The notes below the pieces were generated by a model that had not been told where the DNA came from, did no database searches, and saw only the letters and a list, made by a program, of their open reading frames with translations. The position numbers and the translations under genes are program-made. Positions 11,427 through 55,265 of a stretch of DNA of 61,167 nucleotides are shown in pieces. The DNA comes from Cyclobacteriaceae bacterium (GTDB taxonomy: Bacteria; Bacteroidota; Bacteroidia; Cytophagales; Cyclobacteriaceae), in contig JAGQYM010000023.1 in assembly GCA_020436085.1 (NCBI GenBank), positions 1-61,167 of the forward strand. Reading direction: 5' to 3'. Positions within the stretch are counted from its first letter, which is position 1. Every line of letters starts with the position of its first letter.

Positions 11427-12827
11427 ATGTCAAACTCTAATTTTGATTTTGGCCTTATGTATGCGATCGTAGATATTGAGACAACGGGGGGATATGCCAA
11501 CGGTCATCGGGTAACGGAAATCGCCATCTACCATCATGATGGCATGCAGATTACCAACCACTATCAAACCCTTATTAATCCGGGCCGAACGATTCCCTAT
11601 TTTATCACCGGCCTCACCGGGATTAATTACGAGATGGTAAAAGAGTCACCCTCGTTCGAAGAAGTAGCTCAGGAGATTTACGACCAGCTCAAAGACCGCA
11701 TCTTTGTCGCTCACAACGCTCACTTTGACTATAGTTTCCTTAAAAAAGAATTCGAAGGAGCAGGAATAAACTGGACCAGCAAAAAACTTTGCACCGTAAG
11801 ACTGAGCAGAAAAATCATTCCAGGCCTGGCGTCATACAGTCTGGGGCGACTTGCAGAAAGCCTTGGCATTAAAATCAAAAACCGCCATCGTGCAGGAGGC
11901 GATGCGGAGGCTACATCTCAAGTCTTTGATCTCTTACTGAAAAGAGACAACACAGGCGTTATCGCCAAAGCACTGAAACGAAATTCAGGTGAAACGATTC
12001 TTCCGCCCAATCTTGACAAAAGTGAGTTTGACAAATTGCCCGCCAAAGCCGGAGTTTATTATTTCCTTGACGGAAGAAGTAATGTGATTTATGTAGGAAA
12101 AGCCGTCAATATCAAGAAGCGGATTGCAGGACACTTCACAGGCGAGGCTCGTGAATGGAACAGGTCAAACATCAGAAATGAAATTCATCACATCACTTAC
12201 GAACTCACCGGCAACGAATTGATTGCCTTGATTTTTGAGTCACAAGAAATCAGAAGGCTATGGCCAAAGTATAATCTCGCGCAGAAAGTAAGAACAGAAG
12301 AGTGGGGAGTATTTGATTATGAAGATAGAGCAGGTTTTTTGCGTTTCAGTGTGAATACAGTTTCGCGCGGTGCAAGACCGTTGATTAGTTTTAGTTCGAA
12401 AGGTGACGCGTGGAACTTCATGTGGGAAAAAGTCAGAGAATATGATCTCTGCCCTAAACTTTCAGGATTGCAACTGGCGAAAGGGTTGTGCTTCAGCTAC
12501 CAAACTGGCGAATGCAAAGGAGCATGCATGGGCGTGGAGTCGTTGAAGAAATACAACAAGCGGGCGCAGGCTGCGCTGGAGTCATTTACAGATCAGGGAG
12601 AAAGTTTGGCGATCCTCGGGCGCGGTCGAAAGAACAATGAGCGCTCGCTGGTGCTCATTGAAAACGGAGTTTACCTCGGATTCGGCTTTGTTGACAAGAG
12701 CGAAACCGTGGCTTCGCTGGATGACGCCAAGAACTATATCAAAGTATCCCGGGAGAACCGGATCGTTCAGAATCTGGTGAACTCGTACTTGGTGAACCCA
12801 CGAGGTGCCGAAGTAATTTCGTTTTAG
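11427..12827 (+). CDS. DnaQ-like 3'-5' exonuclease fused to a GIY-YIG (UvrC/Cho-type) nuclease
   Basis: 466 residues from ATG 11427 (a GTG two codons earlier and an ATG at 11457 are alternatives). Residues ~10-165 form a DEDDh exonuclease: Asp16/Glu18 in VDIETTG, the NAHFDYSFL motif, and HRAGGDAEAT. Residues ~195-275 form a GIY-YIG domain (GVYYFL, YVGKAVNIKKRI, and a downstream Glu-bearing segment ALIFESQEIRRLWP). The C-terminal ~190 residues contain conserved cysteines (CFSYQTGECKGAC) of the UvrC-like/Cho type. The fusion is known in bacteria, including as polymerase III epsilon-like proteins, and suggests incision followed by trimming in DNA repair. It overlaps the convergent phosphatase gene by four bases. 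Confidence 0.9.
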   Translation: MSNSNFDFGLMYAIVDIETTGGYANGHRVTEIAIYHHDGMQITNHYQTLINPGRTIPYFITGLTGINYEMVKESPSFEEVAQEIYDQLKDRIFVAHNAHFDYSFLKKEFEGAGINWTSKKLCTVRLSRKIIPGLASYSLGRLAESLGIKIKNRHRAGGDAEATSQVFDLLLKRDNTGVIAKALKRNSGETILPPNLDKSEFDKLPAKAGVYYFLDGRSNVIYVGKAVNIKKRIAGHFTGEAREWNRSNIRNEIHHITYELTGNELIALIFESQEIRRLWPKYNLAQKVRTEEWGVFDYEDRAGFLRFSVNTVSRGARPLISFSSKGDAWNFMWEKVREYDLCPKLSGLQLAKGLCFSYQTGECKGACMGVESLKKYNKRAQAALESFTDQGESLAILGRGRKNNERSLVLIENGVYLGFGFVDKSETVASLDDAKNYIKVSRENRIVQNLVNSYLVNPRGAEVISF

Positions 12828-27056: not shown

Positions 27057-28290
27057 CTTTCATTACGAACGACACTTTTTTCAAAGTGCTGATCGATTTT
27101 GAGGGATCACCAGATACTGCCACCAGGTCAGCCAGAAATCCGGCTCTCACTTCGCCCAAATTGTCAAGATGGAATGCTTTAGCATTGATAGAAGTCACAG
27201 ATTGAAGAATGGAAATTTCGCCCATTCCATATTCTTTCATCAGCTCAAGCTCTCTCGCATTATCTCCGTGTGAAAAAACACCTACATCGCCACCCGCGAT
27301 CATATTAACCCCAGACTTTAACGCAGCAGAAACGCTAGCTCGCTTTTGTGCAATTCTTTCTGGCTCTGGATCAACACCTTTTTTCCATCCGTTGTATTGC
27401 TGAATGGCATCACCTGCAGCAATGGTAGGGCAAAATGAAACACCTTTGTCTTTCATCAAGGTAAATACCTCGAGGTCACCCTGATCTCCATGCTCGATAG
27501 TCTCCACGCCCGCGAGTGTTGCCCTCCGCATCCCTTCTTTTGTGGATGCGTGTGCAACCACAGGTCTGCCGCTGCTTTTTGCAGTTTCCACGATGAGCTT
27601 TAATTCATCAATTGAAAATGTAGGCGCTGCCTCACCGTGCGCCCCCCAACGATAATCAGCATAGACTTTGATAATATCCGCACCTTTTCCGATTTGATCT
27701 CTGGTGACTCTTATCAAATCATTGCCATCTGCTGGTTCTGCGCCCAGCATCACTTCAAAATCAGTGTCGAAACCTTTCGGGCCGTAACTTCCCGTGGCTA
27801 CAATCGCGCGTCCCGCTACCAACATTCGTGGTCCGGGTATCACCCCATCTTCGATTGCTTTCTTCAAGCTGACATCGGCATAACCTGCACCTTCTGATCC
27901 AAGATCTCTCACTGTTGTGAACCCAGCCATCAGCGTCTTTTGTGCATGCACAGTTGCTCGCGCCAAACGGTAGGCGTCAGACTCCTTCATTACCTGGTCA
28001 TTCCAACTTGTTTCATTGTAAGGATGTAGCAACAAATGAGAGTGCGCTTCAATCATGCCGGGAAGAAGCGTGGTGCCCGCCAGATCGATGGTAGTCGAGC
28101 CACGCGGCTTGGTAATTTTAGAAACCGGACCTACATCTGTGATTTTGTTTCCAGTCACCACCACTGCCCAGTTGTCGTGCATTTCTTTTCCATCAAACAC
28201 TCTGTCGGGTTGGAGGAAATAGGTTTGCGCTTGCGAGATCAAGCACAGGCAAGACAAAAGAAAAATGATGGACGCCCGGACAATTTTCAT
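27031..28290 (-). CDS. Exported imidazolonepropionase-like amidohydrolase
   Basis: 419 residues with a signal peptide (IIFLLSCLCLISQAQ; cysteines here could also fit a lipoprotein but no clean lipobox is seen). Metal ligands of the amidohydrolase barrel are recognisable: His-x-His in IEAHSHLLL (~83-85), Lys in GADIIKVYAD (~210), His in VVAHASTKEG (~245), His in IEHGDQGD (~267) and Asp in MIAGGDVG (~338). Related secreted enzymes act as Xaa-Pro dipeptidases or unknown amidases; substrate cannot be chosen. It overlaps the DUF1287 gene by 26 bp and lies 24 bp after the thiol peroxidase gene. Confidence 0.9.
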   Translation of the reverse strand: MKIVRASIIFLLSCLCLISQAQTYFLQPDRVFDGKEMHDNWAVVVTGNKITDVGPVSKITKPRGSTTIDLAGTTLLPGMIEAHSHLLLHPYNETSWNDQVMKESDAYRLARATVHAQKTLMAGFTTVRDLGSEGAGYADVSLKKAIEDGVIPGPRMLVAGRAIVATGSYGPKGFDTDFEVMLGAEPADGNDLIRVTRDQIGKGADIIKVYADYRWGAHGEAAPTFSIDELKLIVETAKSSGRPVVAHASTKEGMRRATLAGVETIEHGDQGDLEVFTLMKDKGVSFCPTIAAGDAIQQYNGWKKGVDPEPERIAQKRASVSAALKSGVNMIAGGDVGVFSHGDNARELELMKEYGMGEISILQSVTSINAKAFHLDNLGEVRAGFLADLVAVSGDPSKSISTLKKVSFVMKDGVIYKQK

Positions 28291-28314
28291 AAAAGAAGCA
28301 TTAAGTGAGCAAAA

Positions 28315-28812
28315 TTATAATGCAGTCAATGCAGCATCATAATTAGGCTCTTGTCCTACGGCAGGGACCACTTCCGTGTGTTTTACTTTTCCTGTTTCAT
28401 CAAGCACCACGATGGAGCGCGCAAAGAAACCGTTCATACCCCCATCAACCATTTCCATGCCGTACGATTTGGAGAAGCCCTTGTTCTTAAAATCAGAAAG
28501 GGTAACGACTTTGTCAATTCCTTCTGCACCACAAAAACGTTTGAACGCAAAAGGCAAATCTTTCGAAATACAAAGAACTATAGTATTATCGAGACCAGAG
28601 GCGCGTTTGTTAAACTCACGCACAGAAGTGGCACACACACCGGTGTCAATACTTGGAAAAATATTCAGAACGACTTTTTTACCTTTGAAAGAGGACAGAT
28701 TTACTTCCTTCAGATCGTTGCCTACCATCGTAAAGTCAGGAGCCGAAGATCCGACAGCTGGAAGATCGCCAATTGTGTTTACTGTATTTTCACCGAGTTT
28801 AGTTTGTGCCAT
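28315..28812 (-). CDS. tpx: Thiol peroxidase (atypical 2-Cys peroxiredoxin)
   Basis: 165 residues, the usual length of Tpx. The peroxidatic Cys60 is in the motif DTGVCATS and the resolving Cys94 in KRFCGAEG, exactly the Tpx spacing. It reduces hydroperoxides in the cytoplasm or periplasm with thioredoxin as donor; no signal peptide is present here, so cytoplasmic. It lies between the DUF4293 gene and the amidohydrolase gene on the same strand with short gaps, so oxidative-stress control of a common transcript is possible but not shown. Confidence 0.96.
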   Translation of the reverse strand: MAQTKLGENTVNTIGDLPAVGSSAPDFTMVGNDLKEVNLSSFKGKKVVLNIFPSIDTGVCATSVREFNKRASGLDNTIVLCISKDLPFAFKRFCGAEGIDKVVTLSDFKNKGFSKSYGMEMVDGGMNGFFARSIVVLDETGKVKHTEVVPAVGQEPNYDAALTAL

Positions 28813-28862
28813 AATATTTATTGGTTGGATTATTATTGATGAACAATTAGTTTTTGTTTTGG

Positions 28863-29327
28863 TTATCGGATTCGGTCTGAATCGCGAACTATTTTCTCGT
28901 CCTTTCTGATGAAGCGGTTGGCAATCATATTGCTGATCATCGCAGCGACAGGAAGGAATAGAGCAAGTCCATATTCTCCCGCTTGCTGATTTGCCTTTAT
29001 CAAATCAGTGGCAAAGTACACGGCCGAGCCAATGCTTCCTGCCATAAACAAGGAGTTAAGAGCACCAAGTTTAATCTGTAACATTCGGTTTTGAAACTTA
29101 CCAATTTCAAAAAATGCGAGTGTTGCTGCCGCGATAGCGCAAATGGCAGTGAGGCTATAGGGAAAGTAAAGTGTTGTCTTTGCTTCTCCTTCCACCACCG
29201 TATAGTGAAGAGGAAACAATGACTTCTCGACCCCGTCAACATACGAACGCCAAATCGGAAAGAAAATGCTCAACAGCATACACACACCAACGATCACCAG
29301 AAATACAGTTTGTTTCCTTTGCCACAT
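28863..29327 (-). CDS. DUF4293 family membrane protein
   Basis: 154 residues with four membrane segments (~5-24, 52-72, 78-98 partly, 108-130) and a basic cytoplasmic tail (RKDEKIVRDSDRIR). The start MWQRKQTVFL and the pattern of four helices with a periplasmic loop after the first match DUF4293, a family largely confined to Bacteroidota. Function unknown. It is the first gene of the minus-strand run that includes thiol peroxidase. Confidence 0.85.
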   Translation of the reverse strand: MWQRKQTVFLVIVGVCMLLSIFFPIWRSYVDGVEKSLFPLHYTVVEGEAKTTLYFPYSLTAICAIAAATLAFFEIGKFQNRMLQIKLGALNSLFMAGSIGSAVYFATDLIKANQQAGEYGLALFLPVAAMISNMIANRFIRKDEKIVRDSDRIR

Positions 29328-29395
29328 AGAAGGGTTGATTTAACCTTGACGATTTTCATTAAACAATTCCAACGAAAAGAGTAGAGCCGGCATTC

Positions 29396-29445
29396 ATGTC
29401 AAGGTTAAACCCTGACAATGCTGACGCTCGCTTCACGATTCGTCA
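29396..29445 (-). repeat. Dispersed regulatory-like repeat, copy 2
   Basis: Reverse complement of the element at 11191-11241: an imperfect palindrome ATGTCAAGGTT-AAACCCTGACA followed by TGCTGACG and ATTCGTCA. It sits in the 221-bp spacer before the thiolase gene, with its ATTCGTCA end 11 bp from the TATTTTTG -7 box at 29457-29464. Confidence 0.7.
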
Positions 29446-29456
29446 GATTTAGAGAA

Positions 29457-29464
29457 TATTTTTG
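29457..29464 (+). promoter_or_regulatory. -7 box of the thiolase gene
   Basis: TATTTTTG matches TAnnTTTG and lies 85 bp before the thiolase ATG. No TTG is found at the -33 position; instead the dispersed repeat ends 11 bp upstream, which would suit an activator-dependent promoter. Confidence 0.45.
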
Positions 29465-29548
29465 TACTAATGCGTTTAAGTCGGTTTAACTTGCAGCAAA
29501 AATAGCGAATTCGCGCGTTTTTGAGCTCAAATCTTTACTCCTATCAAT

Positions 29549-30751
29549 ATGAGAAGTGCCCTAATCATTGACATCTTGCGTACACCTGTGGGCAAGTACG
29601 GAGGAACACTTTCCTCGGTGCGCCCTGACGACCTTCTGGCTCATGCGATCAGTAAGTTGATTGAAAGAAACCCTACAGTCGATCCATCTTTGGTTGAAGA
29701 TGTAGTGGCAGGTGCTGCAAATCAGGCTGGTGAGGACAATCGAAATGTGGCGCGAATGGCACTCTTACTGGCAGGCCTTCCGCTGGAGACAGGTGGTACT
29801 ACTGTCAATCGTTTGTGTGCTTCCGGATTGCAGGCGATCATGGATGCGTCACGTGCTTTGATAGCTGGTGATGGAGAAGTTTTTATCGCTGGAGGGGTGG
29901 AGAGTATGAGTCGTGCTCCGTTTGTAATGCCAAAGGCAGCGGGTGCATTTTCAAGACAAGCTGAAGTTTATGACACCACTATTGGTTGGAGATTCACCAA
30001 TCCGAAGTTGGCAAAATTACATTACCCATTCAGCATGGGCGAGACTGCTGAAAACGTAGCAGAGAGATGGAAGATATCACGTGAAGAACAAGACGCTTTT
30101 GGATTGCAATCTCAACAACGCTACTTCGCGGCTCGCGACAAGAATAAATTCAAAAACGAAATCGTGCCCGTTATAATTCCTCAAAAAAAAGGAAACGCGA
30201 TTGAGTTTAGTGTTGACGAAAATCCTCGAGAAACTTCACTGGAGAAGTTGGCTGCATTAAAGCCAGCATTTAAAGAAAAGGGTACAGTGACTGCAGGCAA
30301 CTCATCAGGAATAAATGATGGAGCGGCAGCAGCTTTGATCGTAAGCGAAGAGGTAAACAAAAAATTGAAGTTGAACCCAATGGCAAGGATAGTTTCAATG
30401 GCAGTGGCCGGTGTTGATCCTGCCGTCATGGGTGTTGGGCCAATCCCGGCAACACAAAAAGCGCTTAAGCGGGCAGGACTAAAAGTTGAGGATATTGATT
30501 TGGTAGAGTTGAATGAAGCCTTTGCCTCGCAGTCCATAGCATGCACCCGCGATCTTGGTTTTGATCCAGAGATTGTGAACGTCAACGGTGGTGCGATTGC
30601 AATTGGTCACCCTCTAGGTTGCAGTGGTGTTCGCATCAGCGCGACATTACTTCATGAAATGGAAAAACGGAAAGCGAAGTACGGTCTTGCAACTATGTGT
30701 ATCGGAGTTGGTCAGGGCGCGGCAATTGTCTATGAGAATCTTAGAATTTGA
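29549..30751 (+). CDS. Acetyl-CoA C-acyltransferase (thiolase), PcaF/PaaJ-like
   Basis: 400 residues. The nucleophilic Cys90 is in NRLCASGLQA; the other active-site residues are His354 (AIGHPLGCSG) and Cys384 (MCIGVGQGAA). The N-terminus (RTPVGKYGGTLSSVRPDDL) resembles beta-ketoadipyl-CoA thiolases rather than FadA, so it may end an aromatic or dicarboxylate degradation route or act in fatty-acid oxidation. No pathway partner is adjacent, so specificity stays open. A -7 box and a copy of the dispersed repeat precede it. Confidence 0.95.
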   Translation: MRSALIIDILRTPVGKYGGTLSSVRPDDLLAHAISKLIERNPTVDPSLVEDVVAGAANQAGEDNRNVARMALLLAGLPLETGGTTVNRLCASGLQAIMDASRALIAGDGEVFIAGGVESMSRAPFVMPKAAGAFSRQAEVYDTTIGWRFTNPKLAKLHYPFSMGETAENVAERWKISREEQDAFGLQSQQRYFAARDKNKFKNEIVPVIIPQKKGNAIEFSVDENPRETSLEKLAALKPAFKEKGTVTAGNSSGINDGAAAALIVSEEVNKKLKLNPMARIVSMAVAGVDPAVMGVGPIPATQKALKRAGLKVEDIDLVELNEAFASQSIACTRDLGFDPEIVNVNGGAIAIGHPLGCSGVRISATLLHEMEKRKAKYGLATMCIGVGQGAAIVYENLRI

Positions 30752-30852
30752 GAGTTTAGAATTCAAGAGTAGTTAAAAACTCAATGGCATCATGACAAGG
30801 ATTTTGAACCCTCCCAACTTCTTCCATTCCGTCTTCTCAACTTCTGCGAACA

Positions 30853-31599
30853 ATGCGCTATTTTTTTGAGATAAGCTACAATGGCACAAAATTTCATGGT
30901 TGGCAATCACAGGCCAATGCGGTAGGCGTGCAGGATGTCGTAGAGGAAGTATTTCAAAAACTGTTTAGAAAGGAGATTGGGATAGTGGGCAGTGGACGAA
31001 CAGACACTGGTGTACATTGTGTGAAACAATACTTTCACGCGGACTTCGATCATAAATTGGACTACCCTTCTACATTGGTTCGCCTCAACTCATTTCTTCC
31101 TCAGCAGATCTCGATCAACTCCATTCACCTTGTTGAGCCAACAGCGCATGCCCGGTACGATGCGAGAGAAAGAACTTACGAATACCGTATCACGCAAAGA
31201 AAGAGTCCATTTCAGCACAATTATGCGTTTTACTATTTCAAACCTGTAGACGTGGAAAGAATGAACAAGGCCGCGGAGTTGTTGATCGGGAACCATGACT
31301 TTCAAGCGTTTAGTAAGGTAAAAACGGACGTAAATCACTTTATTTGCGACCTGAAAAAAGCGAGATGGAATCAAAAAAATGATTTGCTCGTTTTTACGAT
31401 CGCGGCCAATCGCTTCCTGCGTGGGATGGTGAGGGCCATAGTTGGTAGCCTGCTGGATGTGGGCACCGGAAAAACGACCTTGAAAGACTTTCATCAAATA
31501 GTGAAAAGCAAAGACCGGAGAAAAGCTGGCATGAACGTGCCTCCTGAAGGTTTGTATTTAATGAATGTAAAATATCCTAAGCGAATTTTTTTAGACTAG
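30853..31599 (+). CDS. truA: tRNA pseudouridine(38-40) synthase
   Basis: 248 residues, normal TruA length. Catalytic Asp51 is in GSGRTDTGVH; other family motifs are YDARERTYEYRI (~97-108) and the C-terminal FLRGMVRAIVGSLLDVGTGK (~188-205). It modifies uridines 38-40 in the anticodon arm of tRNAs. The ABC exporter gene begins four bases after its stop, indicating co-transcription. Confidence 0.96.
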   Translation: MRYFFEISYNGTKFHGWQSQANAVGVQDVVEEVFQKLFRKEIGIVGSGRTDTGVHCVKQYFHADFDHKLDYPSTLVRLNSFLPQQISINSIHLVEPTAHARYDARERTYEYRITQRKSPFQHNYAFYYFKPVDVERMNKAAELLIGNHDFQAFSKVKTDVNHFICDLKKARWNQKNDLLVFTIAANRFLRGMVRAIVGSLLDVGTGKTTLKDFHQIVKSKDRRKAGMNVPPEGLYLMNVKYPKRIFLD

Positions 31600-53017: not shown

Positions 53018-53057
53018 GCGTCTTATGACGCGGGGCTCGCTCCTGAAGCTACGCGAG
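53018..53057. repeat. Pair of GC-rich 5-bp hairpins at the 3' end of the gene at 53049
   Basis: GCGTC-TTAT-GACGC (53018-53031) is followed by CTCGC (53036-53040), a 12-nt loop and GCGAG (53053-53057). The TAG stop of the neighbouring minus-strand gene (53049-53051) falls in that second loop. The build recalls the cloverleaf element at 53805-53853. Confidence 0.5.
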
Positions 53058-53303
53058 GCTTTGAGGAAGCTTGATCTGATCGTAGTAAAATTTCATCCGA
53101 CTGTGATTGGTATCCAGCCGCTGGATTTTTTCAATCTTGGCCAACTTGTGATTTACAAACACCTCTACATAAAAACTTCCTAATAGGTACAGGTTGATTT
53201 TGAAGCCATAATATCTGATGGCCATTACAAAATTTCCATCAGTGTAGAGTGTGTTGATCTTTCGATCAAATGAATACTCGCTGAACTCTGTCCAACTGAT
53301 CAT
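53049..53303 (-). CDS. Small protein of unknown function
   Basis: 84 residues, no signal peptide, no membrane helix of usual length. Many aromatics and beta-prone stretches (GNFVMAIRYYGFKINLYLL, FYVEVFVNHKLAKIEKI) suggest a small beta-barrel or alpha/beta domain. The last residues (QSLA and stop) are encoded within a hairpin region. It is not covered by neighbouring genes and its codon use looks like theirs, so I take it to be real, but I recognise no family. Confidence 0.6.
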   Translation of the reverse strand: MISWTEFSEYSFDRKINTLYTDGNFVMAIRYYGFKINLYLLGSFYVEVFVNHKLAKIEKIQRLDTNHSRMKFYYDQIKLPQSLA

Positions 53304-53384: not shown

Positions 53385-53415
53385 TTTGCAAATTATCTCT
53401 TCGTACCTAAATTTG
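53385..53415 (+). promoter_or_regulatory. Predicted tRNA-His promoter
   Basis: TTTG (53385-53388), exactly 19-bp spacer, TAAATTTG (53408-53415), 33 bp before the tRNA 5' end. This is the best promoter match in the window. Confidence 0.65.
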
Positions 53416-53427
53416 CCGTCCTTCTGA

Positions 53428-53442
53428 TCCCGCCTGGCGGGA
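53428..53442. repeat. 15-bp GC palindrome in the tRNA-His leader
   Basis: TCCCGCC-T-GGCGGGA, perfect arms, lies between the predicted transcription start (~53421) and the tRNA 5' end. It could guide precursor folding or be a REP-like repeat. Confidence 0.55.
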
Positions 53443-53447
53443 ATTAT

Positions 53448-53522
53448 GGTGAATGTAGCTCAGTTGGTTAGAGCACCAGATTGTGATTCTGGGGGTCGCG
53501 GGTTCGAGCCCCGTCTTTCACC
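53448..53522 (+). tRNA. tRNA-His (GTG anticodon)
   Basis: The cloverleaf folds with acceptor GTGAATG (53449-53455) against CTTTCAC (53515-53521), D-arm starting TAGCTCAG, anticodon loop TTGTGAT (GTG), variable region GGGTC and T-arm GCGGG-TTCGAGC-CCCGT. The extra 5' G (53448) faces the discriminator C (53522), the identity pair of tRNA-His. The acceptor has one T-T mismatch at position 6-67. A partial CCA-like CA follows but a full encoded CCA is not in register. A terminator lies directly downstream. The same 3' end is found again at 53853. Confidence 0.95.
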
Positions 53523-53525
53523 CAT

Positions 53526-53548
53526 ATGCCCCTACCGGGGCATTTTTT
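53526..53548 (+). terminator. Terminator of tRNA-His
   Basis: TGCCCC-TACC-GGGGCA followed by six T (53543-53548). The ATG of the GIY-YIG gene begins at 53549, at the end of the T-run, so nuclease expression requires read-through or its own start in the tRNA region. Confidence 0.92.
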
Positions 53549-53818
53549 ATGAGTTATTGCGTGTACATTTTGGAGTCGCTTGTTGATGGATCATGGTATT
53601 ATGGACAGACCAATGATCTTGAAAAGCGTTTCGTTCGTCATAATGCAGGTTATGAAAAGTACACGAAAAACAAGCGGCCATTGAGAATCTATTGGTCGAC
53701 AAAGGTTTCAACACGGAGTGAGGCGATGAAACTTGAGCGAAAGCTGAAGAATATGAAATCGAGAAGGAGAGTTCAGGAATTTATTGATCAGTCGTCAGGT
53801 TCGAGTGCCGTGCGCTAA
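53549..53818 (+). CDS. Small GIY-YIG nuclease domain protein, tRNA-associated
   Basis: 89 residues from ATG 53549; a longer open frame from 53483 reads through the tRNA and terminator and is not credible. The domain is complete: VYI (residues 5-7), YYG (17-19), the catalytic Arg27 in EKRFVRHN, and Glu63 in EAMKLERKLK. It belongs to the short stand-alone GIY-YIG group (UPF0213/YhbQ-like). Residues 81-89 (QSSGSSAVR) are encoded by a fragment of the tRNA T-arm and the first arm of the cloverleaf element; the stop TAA is that element's first loop. The layout suggests a small mobile gene that targets the 3' end of tRNA-His. Confidence 0.88.
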   Translation: MSYCVYILESLVDGSWYYGQTNDLEKRFVRHNAGYEKYTKNKRPLRIYWSTKVSTRSEAMKLERKLKNMKSRRRVQEFIDQSSGSSAVR

Positions 53819-53853
53819 GCGCACGAGCATGCTCGTAAGCTTGCTTACGGCAC
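53805..53853. repeat. Perfect 49-bp cloverleaf palindromic element
   Basis: Outer stem GTGCCG (53805-53810) with CGGCAC (53848-53853). Inside are three hairpins without any spacer: TGCGC-TAA-GCGCA (53811-53823), CGAGC-AT-GCTCG (53824-53835) and TAAGC-TT-GCTTA (53836-53847). Every stem is perfect. It splits the tRNA fragment between T-loop and 3' T-stem strand. I find no other copy in the window. Confidence 0.9.
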
Positions 53854-53867
53854 CCGTCTTTCACCCC

Positions 53868-53892
53868 AATGCCCCACTCGGGGCATTTTTTT
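53868..53892 (+). terminator. Terminator copy behind the GIY-YIG gene
   Basis: TGCCCC (53870-53875), loop ACTC, GGGGCA (53880-53885), seven T. A duplicate of the tRNA-His terminator; it would end the nuclease transcript. Confidence 0.85.
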
Positions 53893-53897
53893 ATGAG

Positions 53898-55241
53898 TTA
53901 CTTTTCTCGATCAAAGCTCAAACGAAATCCCTTAACTGACTCATCAAATGTTCCCTGGTGATAGGCTCTGTGCCCAGACACCCAGGTAGAATCAATTTTC
54001 GAACTGAATGTTTGCCCTTGAAATGGAGACCAGCCACACTTTGCTAAAATGTTCTCCTTGCCTACTGTCCATGGGTCATTAAGATCCACAAGCACCAGAT
54101 CTGCGAAGTAGCCCTCTCTGATGTAACCTCGCTCTTTTATGTTGAATAGAATGGCAGGATTGTGACTCATCTTTTCTGCGATGCGCTCCAATGAGATTGT
54201 TCCCTTTTTATAAAACTCGAGCATGGCCACCAAGCTATGCTGGACAAGTGGTCCGCCTGATGGCGCGCTGAAATATTTGTTTTGTTTTTCCTCCCAGATG
54301 TGTGGTGCGTGGTCAGTTGCAATTACATCTATCCTGTCGTCCAAAACAGCGTTCATAATTGCTTCCTGATCGGACTTGGTTTTAATCGCGGGATTCCATT
54401 TGATCAGGGTTCCCATTTGCTCGTAGTCACCATCGTTGAACCAAAGATGATGAATGCAAGCTTCAGCCGTGACCTTTTTATCCTTTAGAGGAATACTATT
54501 GTCAAAAAGTGCTGTCTCTTTTGCCGTAGATATATGAAGAATATGAAGACGAGTGCCATGTTTTTTTGCCAAGTCCAACGCGAATGAAGAAGACAGATAG
54601 CAGGCTTCTTCGCTCCTTATCTGCGGGTGCATTCTTATTGGCATATCTTCTCCATACTTCTCGCGAAAGAGCTCGGTATTTTTTCTTATCGTGGGTTCGT
54701 GTTCACAATGACTAGCAATAACGGCTGGAAAACGACTGAAGAACCCTTCCAGGGTTTTTGGATCATCAACTAACAAGTTGCCGGTAGAAGAGCCCATGAA
54801 AATTTTCAAGCCACAAACACTTTGGATGTCTGTTCTCATCACCTCTTCCAGGTTGTCATTGGCGGCACCCATAAAGAATGAATAATTCGCCAGGGAATTA
54901 TGACGTGCGATCTCATACTTATCCTCCAGCAACTTTTGGGTGAACACAGGAGGCACGGTGTTTGGCATTTCCATAAAGGAGGTAACGCCACCTGCTACTG
55001 CTGCTCTGGCTTCGGTGTATATCGTAGCCTTGTGTGTCAGTCCTGGCTCGCGAAAGTGCACTTGATCATCGATCGCTCCGGGGAACAGGTACTTACCCGA
55101 TGCATCCACGACCTCATTGGCCGATTCTGATTGAAGGTCACTACCAATCTTTTGAATATGTTGTCCTTTAATAAGGAGGTCCTGTTCAGTAACTGCTCCT
55201 TCGTTTACTATCTTCGCATTTAAAATTAGTGTCGACTTCAT
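53898..55241 (-). CDS. pyrC: Dihydroorotase-type amidohydrolase with substituted first metal His
   Basis: 447 residues from ATG 55241 (MKSTLILNAK fits the family start; an ATG at 55259 is the alternative). It closes N-carbamoyl aspartate to dihydroorotate in pyrimidine synthesis if active. The amidohydrolase barrel is clear: Asp59-Gln60-Val-His62 in DDQVHFREPG, Lys146 in GLKIFMGSS, His in SHCEHEPT, His in LHILHIST and Asp in ATDHAPH. The usual His-x-His has become Gln-x-His, so the metal site differs from classic dihydroorotase. The 3' end meets the duplicated tRNA region. A divergent helicase gene begins 24 bp away. Confidence 0.88.
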   Translation of the reverse strand: MKSTLILNAKIVNEGAVTEQDLLIKGQHIQKIGSDLQSESANEVVDASGKYLFPGAIDDQVHFREPGLTHKATIYTEARAAVAGGVTSFMEMPNTVPPVFTQKLLEDKYEIARHNSLANYSFFMGAANDNLEEVMRTDIQSVCGLKIFMGSSTGNLLVDDPKTLEGFFSRFPAVIASHCEHEPTIRKNTELFREKYGEDMPIRMHPQIRSEEACYLSSSFALDLAKKHGTRLHILHISTAKETALFDNSIPLKDKKVTAEACIHHLWFNDGDYEQMGTLIKWNPAIKTKSDQEAIMNAVLDDRIDVIATDHAPHIWEEKQNKYFSAPSGGPLVQHSLVAMLEFYKKGTISLERIAEKMSHNPAILFNIKERGYIREGYFADLVLVDLNDPWTVGKENILAKCGWSPFQGQTFSSKIDSTWVSGHRAYHQGTFDESVKGFRLSFDREK

Positions 55242-55265
55242 TGATTCAAAGATAAGCATTGCGTT

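Follow-up and report, generated by a model that had tools for sequence, protein, structure and literature searches.

A candidate single-gene mobile unit at tRNA-His of a Cyclobacteriaceae bacterium: a small GIY-YIG nuclease gene with a split, duplicated tRNA end

Organization of the tRNA-His unit and of its counterparts in the source genome

The DNA analysed is a stretch of 61,167 nucleotides from a Cyclobacteriaceae bacterium (assembly GCA_020436085.1, contig JAGQYM010000023.1, positions 1 to 61,167 of the forward strand), referred to below as the window. It contains a transfer RNA (tRNA) gene for histidine, an 89-codon gene for a GIY-YIG nuclease and, beyond that gene, the 3' end of tRNA-His once more; together these form a unit of 343 bp. 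A single tRNA gene is called here by ARAGORN, the intact tRNA-His (GTG) at 53449-53523 (+), whose 3' part is duplicated. It is followed by an intrinsic terminator (53526-53548, +) within the duplicated stretch and by the nuclease gene (53549-53818, +; 89 aa; PF01541, E=1.1e-16), the frame of which extends into the second copy (copy B) and its hairpin. The direct repeat pairs 53510-53548 with 53853-53891 (39 nt, 87% identity, spacing 343), and TTTTTTATGAGTTA is repeated at 53543-53556 and 53887-53900 (100% identity, spacing 344). The first-pass annotation had described a tRNA-His 3' end repeated with five mismatches and one gap, an 89-codon GIY-YIG gene between the repeats and a T-arm match at the left edge of the second copy; all three were borne out by alignment and by the Pfam match.

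Copy B is split. Its 5' piece is the T-arm stretch GGTTCGAG (53798-53805, +), identical to the tRNA-His T-arm at 53501-53508, and its 3' piece lies at 53853-53866 (+). Between GGTTCGAG and CCCGTC, which is the T-loop position, stands an insert of 47 nt (53806-53852, +) with the core GAGCATGCTC; when folded with RNA parameters it gives two back-to-back hairpins with a one-base bulge in each, TGCCGTGCGC-TAA-GCGCACGAGCA followed by TGCTCGTAAG-CTTG-CTTACGGCA. The same core is found in other tRNA-His elements, there with different stems. The nuclease stop codon (53816-53818) falls within the insert. Copy B continues with a second terminator (53869-53892, +) and a second ATGAGTTA (53893-53900, +), which overlaps the stop codon (53898-53900) of a pyrC-like amidohydrolase gene on the opposite strand. 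In the intact tRNA-His, the stretch before the T-loop break is presumably derived from the host and the stretch beyond it supplied by the element. Upstream lies a candidate promoter box, TAAATTTG (53408-53415, +), which we take to be a -7 box of the Bacteroidota type with the consensus TANNTTTG.

This layout is not due to chance, since it recurs at further tRNAs of the same genome and in many other genomes. PF01541 is matched nine times in the source genome (4.42 Mb in 191 contigs), and five of these matches adjoin a tRNA: His, Arg(ACG), Leu(CAG), Arg(CCG) and Phe, the last being truncated. In the His and Leu units the intact tRNA lies upstream of the nuclease and its 3' part is duplicated downstream; both Arg units have the mirror form, with the intact tRNA downstream and the 5' part duplicated upstream; in the truncated Phe unit the terminator alone is duplicated. 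The leftover copy bears a hairpin in 4/4 units read in this genome (located in the T-loop, within the anticodon or directly past the anticodon stem), with CCTGCCTGCCGGCAGGCAGG or variants of it in three. Partial, interrupted tRNA copies with no nuclease gene nearby were found at tRNA-Met (L027), tRNA-Cys (L033) and tRNA-Gly (L018) and are probably relics; a palindrome is present in the Met and Gly copies, that of Met being a CCTGCC palindrome in the D-loop. The threshold for a partial copy (see below) was passed by 8 of 25 further tRNAs of the genome, some of them owing to an adjacent tRNA.

That the hairpins are common genomic repeats was considered and rejected: with up to one mismatch allowed, CCTGCCTGNCGGCAGNCAGG is present three times in the 4.4 Mb, each time adjoining a tRNA; the pattern omits variants of 19 nt, for example those of tRNA-Arg(ACG) and tRNA-Met. 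Another hairpin type, TCCCGA-N(0-14)-TCGGGA, has 11-17 occurrences in each of four genomes (control, 1-2). It is also found away from tRNA sites, since 7 of the 16 loci examined have a tRNA at a distance of up to 300 bp, and three of these seven form one array.

Occupied and nuclease-free tRNA sites in relatives

The window unit is flanked by two host genes, the pyrC-like amidohydrolase gene (53898-55259, -), used as a marker of the empty site, and, on the opposite side, a conserved open reading frame (ORF) of 84 aa (orf84; 53049-53303, -). A search with the tRNA-His region matched 58/58 genomes, the source genome included, and the best tRNA-His locus was read for empty sites in 29 of the 57 relatives. 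An element or a remnant is held by seven (L045, L049, L051, L052, L059, L061 and L066), with three units at the locus of L051 and a unit at the contig end in L059; in the other 22 no nuclease was found at tRNA-His with a hidden Markov model (HMM). A pyrC-like gene follows tRNA-His at 28-171 bp, with no GIY-YIG match by HMM, in 13 of the 29 relatives, and orf84 follows at 78-173 bp, again with no GIY-YIG match, in three. The empty site that the first-pass annotation had proposed to look for is found, therefore, in 16 of the 29 relatives, which have a syntenic tRNA-His site without the element. The distance from tRNA-His to the pyrC-like gene is 378 bp in the window, with the element in between, and 1133 bp in L051. 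Three of the 22 nuclease-free relatives stop at a contig edge, and in L064, L068 and L069 neither the pyrC-like gene nor orf84 occurs downstream within the stretch examined; L068 has an apparent nuclease start, as judged by eye.

The tRNA-His gene is identical letter for letter in the occupied L059 and L061 and in the nuclease-free L053, L055, L056, L058, L060, L062 and L064; insertion therefore leaves the tRNA unchanged. A second clean empty site is provided by tRNA-Leu(CAA) of G017, where no nuclease was found by HMM and where G023 holds three units; the two genomes are 95% identical across 185 bp, up to 2 nt beyond the tRNA. The tRNA-Met of G013 was ruled out as an empty site because a decayed GIY-YIG gene is present (14.3 bits), and it was not counted. 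The orientation of tRNA-His with respect to its two conserved flank genes is inverted in L049, L053, L058, L060 and L066 as compared with the others.

Small GIY-YIG genes beside structured RNA genes

PF01541 matches were collected from 40 genomes of the genus and 61 of the phylum (the source genome in each) and from 27 organism-named contigs. The genus and phylum loci were the top-scoring among the matches listed, and not a random sample (80 places each beyond those given with the searches). ORFs of at least 400 aa and the duplicates L010, L025, L028, L032, L040, L071, L178, L179, L181 and L203 were left out of the counts; L185 and L186, one contig filed in two bins, were both counted. A tRNA lies within 200 bp of the nuclease gene in 146 of 300 units (genus 83/145, named contigs 16/25, phylum 47/130), and the two genes are on the same strand in 146/146 (genus 83/83), so that the search for other GIY-YIG genes near tRNAs suggested by the earlier annotation was rewarded. 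The tRNA is upstream of the nuclease in 105 units and downstream in 41. With 33 tRNAs detected in the 4.4-Mb genome, the chance of such linkage is, by a rough estimate, below 1%. Going by contig labels (bins may be mislabelled), nuclease-tRNA neighbours also occur outside the Bacteroidota, in Chlorobiota (L182, where a related nuclease adjoins tRNA-His), Nitrospirae (L188, L197) and Patescibacteria (L192).

An Rfam scan of 48 loci that lack a tRNA close to the nuclease found, in its place, transfer-messenger RNA (tmRNA) at L087, L110, L302 and L305 and ribonuclease P (RNase P) RNA at L251, and two other RNA families at L264 and L225. L110 has a 68-nt direct repeat of the flank downstream of the tmRNA, L302 has repeated units and L251 a 24-nt inverted match; L087 and L305 have no direct repeat of the tmRNA. 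A partial duplication of the tmRNA or of the RNase P RNA is not established.

Partial tRNA copies were scored with the tRNA plus 25-nt flanks at the 99% level of a shuffled/reversed null. A copy was found across the gene from the tRNA in 128/143 cases (genus 73/81, named 14/16, phylum 41/46), and on the outer side of the tRNA in 36/144 (14/81, 3/16 and 19/47), tRNA clusters included; an earlier test without flanks, the null of which was contaminated by other tRNA copies, gave 80/145 as against 19/142 on the outer side. An insertion of at least 10 nt within the tRNA part is present in 70 of the 128 leftover copies. Of 85 insertions altogether, the T-loop, the most frequent position, holds 31, the D-loop 18, the variable/anticodon 3' stem 13, the anticodon loop 8 and other positions 15; in some copies a palindrome takes the place of the anticodon arm. 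A perfect stem of at least 7 bp was found in 88/127 leftover copies, as against 24/127 intact tRNAs from those loci; the leftover-copy segments were up to 70 nt longer than the intact tRNAs. The unit consists of the nuclease gene and a duplicate of the RNA-gene part past the break. The duplicate generally extends into the flank, which in many 3' types means the terminator, and most units have as a third part a short, lineage-linked hairpin within the leftover copy.

Expression signals accompany the intact tRNA at upstream-type loci: TANNTTTG occurs within 60 nt upstream of it in 43/104 (random windows, 106/3300) and a terminator within 60 nt past it in 43/104 (shuffles, 22/2080). A promoter supplied to the tRNA of downstream-type loci was found in 5/41, a weak signal. 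The nuclease of these 5'-type units has its stop codon within the tRNA in 21/41, and within it or at most 8 nt away in 33/41. Within tandem arrays, neighbouring copies share 44-100% DNA identity, at a spacing of 277-590 bp when one 12-bp artefact in L270 is omitted; truncated nucleases are found in L009 and L045. The array at L279:1100-4110 has eight tandem GIY-YIG genes with a spacing of 359-368 bp; those of its spacers that were read by eye have tRNA-like 3' ends, although no tRNA is called there by ARAGORN or Rfam, and the last leftover copy has a long hairpin of the CCTGCC type.

The solved sequences closest to a profile of 18 members were BH0048 (8.7e-17), EF2693 (1.8e-13), SLX1 (8.9e-8) and I-TevI (0.0079), so that UPF0213 and SLX1 stand closer to the nuclease than I-TevI does. 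Invariant in the 18 diverse members are Y6, S10, Y17, G19, R27, H31, A59, E63 and K67 (window numbering), several of which we take to be residues of the GIY-YIG active site. The ratio of nonsynonymous to synonymous substitution rates (dN/dS) was computed for 57 pairs of clade A (see below) of at least 70% identity, nine of which were usable (seven independent), the rest being saturated or too close. The median was 0.11 (range 0.049-0.532) and 0/9 pairs were at or above 1; the nuclease is under purifying selection in these few usable pairs.

A FastTree phylogeny of 265 of the 300 domains (score at least 60, with length filters) divides into two clades, A with 178 domains and B with 87. In clade A, 130 members have a tRNA within 200 bp, 14 more are array members and 4 have a tRNA at 215-456 bp; the remainder comprises 3 beside tmRNA, 1 beside RNase P RNA, 15 at a contig edge and 11 with none (8 of the 11 being the L279 array). 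Clade B comprises 68 with none, 9 at an edge and 10 linked to an RNA gene. The label for the RNA target changes 71 times on the tree (shuffled mean 118.8, minimum 110; n=142, 34 labels including tmRNA and RNase P, 500 shuffles), RNA-linked versus not 18 times (shuffled minimum 66) and the side of the tRNA 25 times (shuffled minimum 27).

The class of hairpin changes 19 times (shuffled mean 47.0, minimum 40; n=98); the classes are six hand-made regular expressions, defined post hoc and applied in a fixed order, which may sometimes catch a terminator, and they cover 98 of the 136 tree units with a tRNA, leaving 38 unclassified. At tree distances below 1 the classes match in 64/76 pairs of the same isotype and 43/70 of different isotypes; at distances above 2.5 they match in 10/33 and 388/1433, respectively. 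Because the classes were post hoc and may catch terminators, an unsupervised label was added, the outermost 4 nt of the longest stem within the leftover copy. It agrees in direction, with a weaker signal: 59 changes for stems of at least 6 bp (shuffled mean 78.5, minimum 74; n=110) and 45 versus 52 for stems of at least 7 bp (n=86). One clade with GCTGAC hairpins occupies Phe, Met, His and Ser(CGA). Target and hairpin type go with the nuclease lineage.

Clade B (for example L124, L131 and L137), together with L001 and L006, is mostly not linked to RNA genes and often lies among inverted hairpin repeats resembling repetitive extragenic palindromic (REP) sequences. A REP-like motif is present in the flanks of 27/87 clade B and 5/178 clade A members, and GTCATTGCG, GAAGCAATC and CAGGATGAC are enriched in clade B flanks. 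Clade B is possibly a GIY-YIG counterpart of REP sequences and their REP-associated tyrosine transposases (RAYT).

Proposed mechanism and rival explanations

The unit is best read as a single-gene, homing-type mobile element that occupies genes for structured RNAs, cutting the RNA gene in a loop and carrying the displaced part, and to this reading we assign a probability of roughly 0.62. It is filed as homing-type because homing is the best mechanism at hand. The nuclease would cut an RNA gene that does not yet hold a unit, within the loop that later receives the hairpin, and repair off an occupied copy would install the unit. Because the unit would itself carry the displaced gene part, the tRNA would stay intact and the host survive, and the old part would remain at the opposite end of the unit, inactivated by the hairpin. 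The hairpin may be the recognition element of the nuclease itself. Recombination between the repeats could amplify the elements or let them decay, giving tandem arrays and nuclease-less relics. The mobile unit of about 340 bp, nuclease plus tRNA end, that the first-pass annotation had proposed gains support from the empty sites and the tRNA linkage; its movement and the target of cleavage are inferred. Beyond that annotation are the hairpin, the mirror type, the tmRNA and RNase P RNA neighbours, the arrays and the link between lineage and target.

SegB, a phage enzyme, is the system nearest in behaviour and offers the strongest outside support, by analogy. This GIY-YIG enzyme is described as cutting within tRNA genes at the motif RAWTSGAAC (PMC13096335), the reverse complement of which, GTTCSAWTY, by our reading fits the T-loop, the most frequent insertion position in the present units (31/85). 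In phages segB adjoins tRNAs over a wide range of isotypes with no favourite, and recombination yields tandem tRNA-nuclease units (PMC13096335). The SegB genes of phages T4 and T6 resemble the present units in being free-standing GIY-YIG genes that adjoin tRNA genes, in a phage tRNA cluster. They differ in belonging to phage genomes and, within the text available, in having neither a carried tRNA part nor a hairpin-disabled copy, whereas the present elements lie on bacterial chromosomes, have a lineage-linked target and also neighbour tmRNA and RNase P RNA. With free-standing homing genes in general they share a nuclease domain of a homing family, gene-free alleles at the same site and a site-specific lineage. 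The small UPF0213-type GIY-YIG proteins and SLX1, a eukaryotic repair nuclease, are alike in being the nearest solved sequences; to our knowledge neither has been described as mobile.

Several results weigh against the homing reading. The intact tRNA-His of an occupied locus can be the same as in empty loci and the far copy alone is interrupted, so that the element's own allele is not protected by a change of target; recutting of the occupied tRNA would then be expected of a classical homing enzyme, and the homing reading does not account for immunity. The SegB motif was found at 23/83 sites and is not a strict requirement (PMC13096335). Among the small GIY-YIG genes of the phylum, 83/130 have no tRNA within 200 bp, mainly those of clade B; 15/143 tRNA-adjacent genes have no detectable partial copy and 39/127 leftover copies no 7-bp stem. 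The tree was built on short domains, and its deep support is weak. No vehicle was found either: a scan of viral contigs with the His-type alignment gave 0 relatives, a second scan of viral contigs gave 4, one of them with a tRNA, and tblastn gave 12 phage records, all below 40% identity, and 1 plasmid record; the one phage record examined has no annotated tRNA within 2 kb.

The rival that survives best, though we consider it unlikely, is transposition driven by the hairpin: the nuclease would recognise its own hairpin and excise or copy the unit as a hairpin-bearing strand, with the tRNA pieces serving as homology or as a landing structure and with no cut in an empty tRNA. The hairpin class is inherited with the nuclease across isotypes (43/70 at distances below 1, 388/1433 above 2.5), the inserts at tRNA-His fold as paired hairpins reminiscent of REPINs, and SLX1, named as a structure-specific endonuclease, is among the nearest solved sequences. 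Against this stand the lack of any demonstrated intermediate, target-site rule or free element, and the fact that lineage also tracks target identity, which would require recognition of the RNA gene as well. To the REP/RAYT systems the units are similar in their short bulged hairpins, single or paired and co-inherited with a nuclease gene; they differ in that the enzyme is GIY-YIG, the sole Pfam family in the window nuclease, and not HUH/Y1, and in that the hairpins sit within RNA-gene copies. A wider formulation is offered tentatively, with less confidence than the homing reading: a new mobile class in which a GIY-YIG nuclease and a lineage-specific DNA hairpin would land on folded RNA genes and rebuild them, clade B being the free-roaming, RAYT/REP-like form. 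We know of no counterpart of the hairpin partnership and of the gene-restoring design.

A domesticated function is improbable. Here the nuclease would act on RNA, as a toxin, in defence or in tRNA quality control, with the hairpin copy as decoy or antidote and the linkage functional; the strong target specificity, the purifying selection in nine pairs and the hairpins that replace the anticodon arm in some broken copies would fit. A leftover copy lying downstream in 105 units and upstream in 41 is awkward for a single RNA partner, and the relics, truncated nucleases (L009, L045), array of eight and patchy presence look selfish; moreover, SegB acts on DNA, and so does SLX1.

Still less probable is an old and immobile tandem duplication that arose locally, next to a gene resident in the host. 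Near-identical array neighbours (99-100% in L051, L129, L147, L148, L302 and L309), which show that duplication does occur locally, and the likeness of the two terminator stretches of the window could be cited for it. The patchy occupancy of the syntenic site, the several tRNA genes occupied in one genome, the association of lineage and target over many genomes and the hairpins within second copies speak against it, and in its simple form it was rejected on the empty sites and the lineage specificity.

Tyrosine-integrase elements insert into tRNA genes and keep the tRNA intact by means of an identical end, which leaves a direct repeat on the far side. The present units share with such integrative elements a tRNA-end direct repeat that bounds the unit (128/143), and differ in their lack of an integrase, their size of about 340 bp, the loop breaks with hairpins and the mirror 5' type. 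That they are remnants of larger integrase-borne tRNA islands, shrunk to the nuclease gene, is hardly credible: such islands typically leave direct repeats of tRNA parts, but the units are short, array copies lie 277-590 bp apart, the breaks fall in D, anticodon or T loops with hairpins, and the mirror type duplicates the tRNA 5' part. An integrase island was likewise rejected for the window unit, which has no recombinase and one gene, that of the GIY-YIG nuclease, and so was a self-splicing intron, the functional tRNA being uninterrupted and an Rfam search of nine loci (eight with nuclease) finding tRNA only.

A limited literature search, with preprints and most subscription journals outside its coverage, found no such element of bacterial chromosomes; one paper mentions tRNA in other contexts (PMC1564403). 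If mobile, the units would rank with the smallest self-contained mobile elements known from bacterial chromosomes, and bringing a replacement for the displaced part would be an unusual answer to the problem of living in essential genes. The sets of nuclease, target and hairpin over many isotypes offer natural experiments on how a nuclease of about 80 residues recognises structured genes. Mobile units of this kind would also explain why Bacteroidota genomes hold a class of broken tRNA copies and of GIY-YIG genes, and would give T4 SegB a chromosomal counterpart.

Three minor observations are added. In L333, an IMG/VR contig filed as viral, an Arg-type relative lies beside tRNA-Arg(ACG) in the stretch 28206-31233 of 31233, at the contig end; this stretch is perhaps the host flank of a prophage. 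In the window, a small palindrome, CCCGCCTGGCGGG, occurs at 53429-53441, within the leader that separates the promoter-like box from tRNA-His. A second GIY-YIG domain of the window lies at 12048-12275, within a frame of 468 codons (L008, 31.7 bits).

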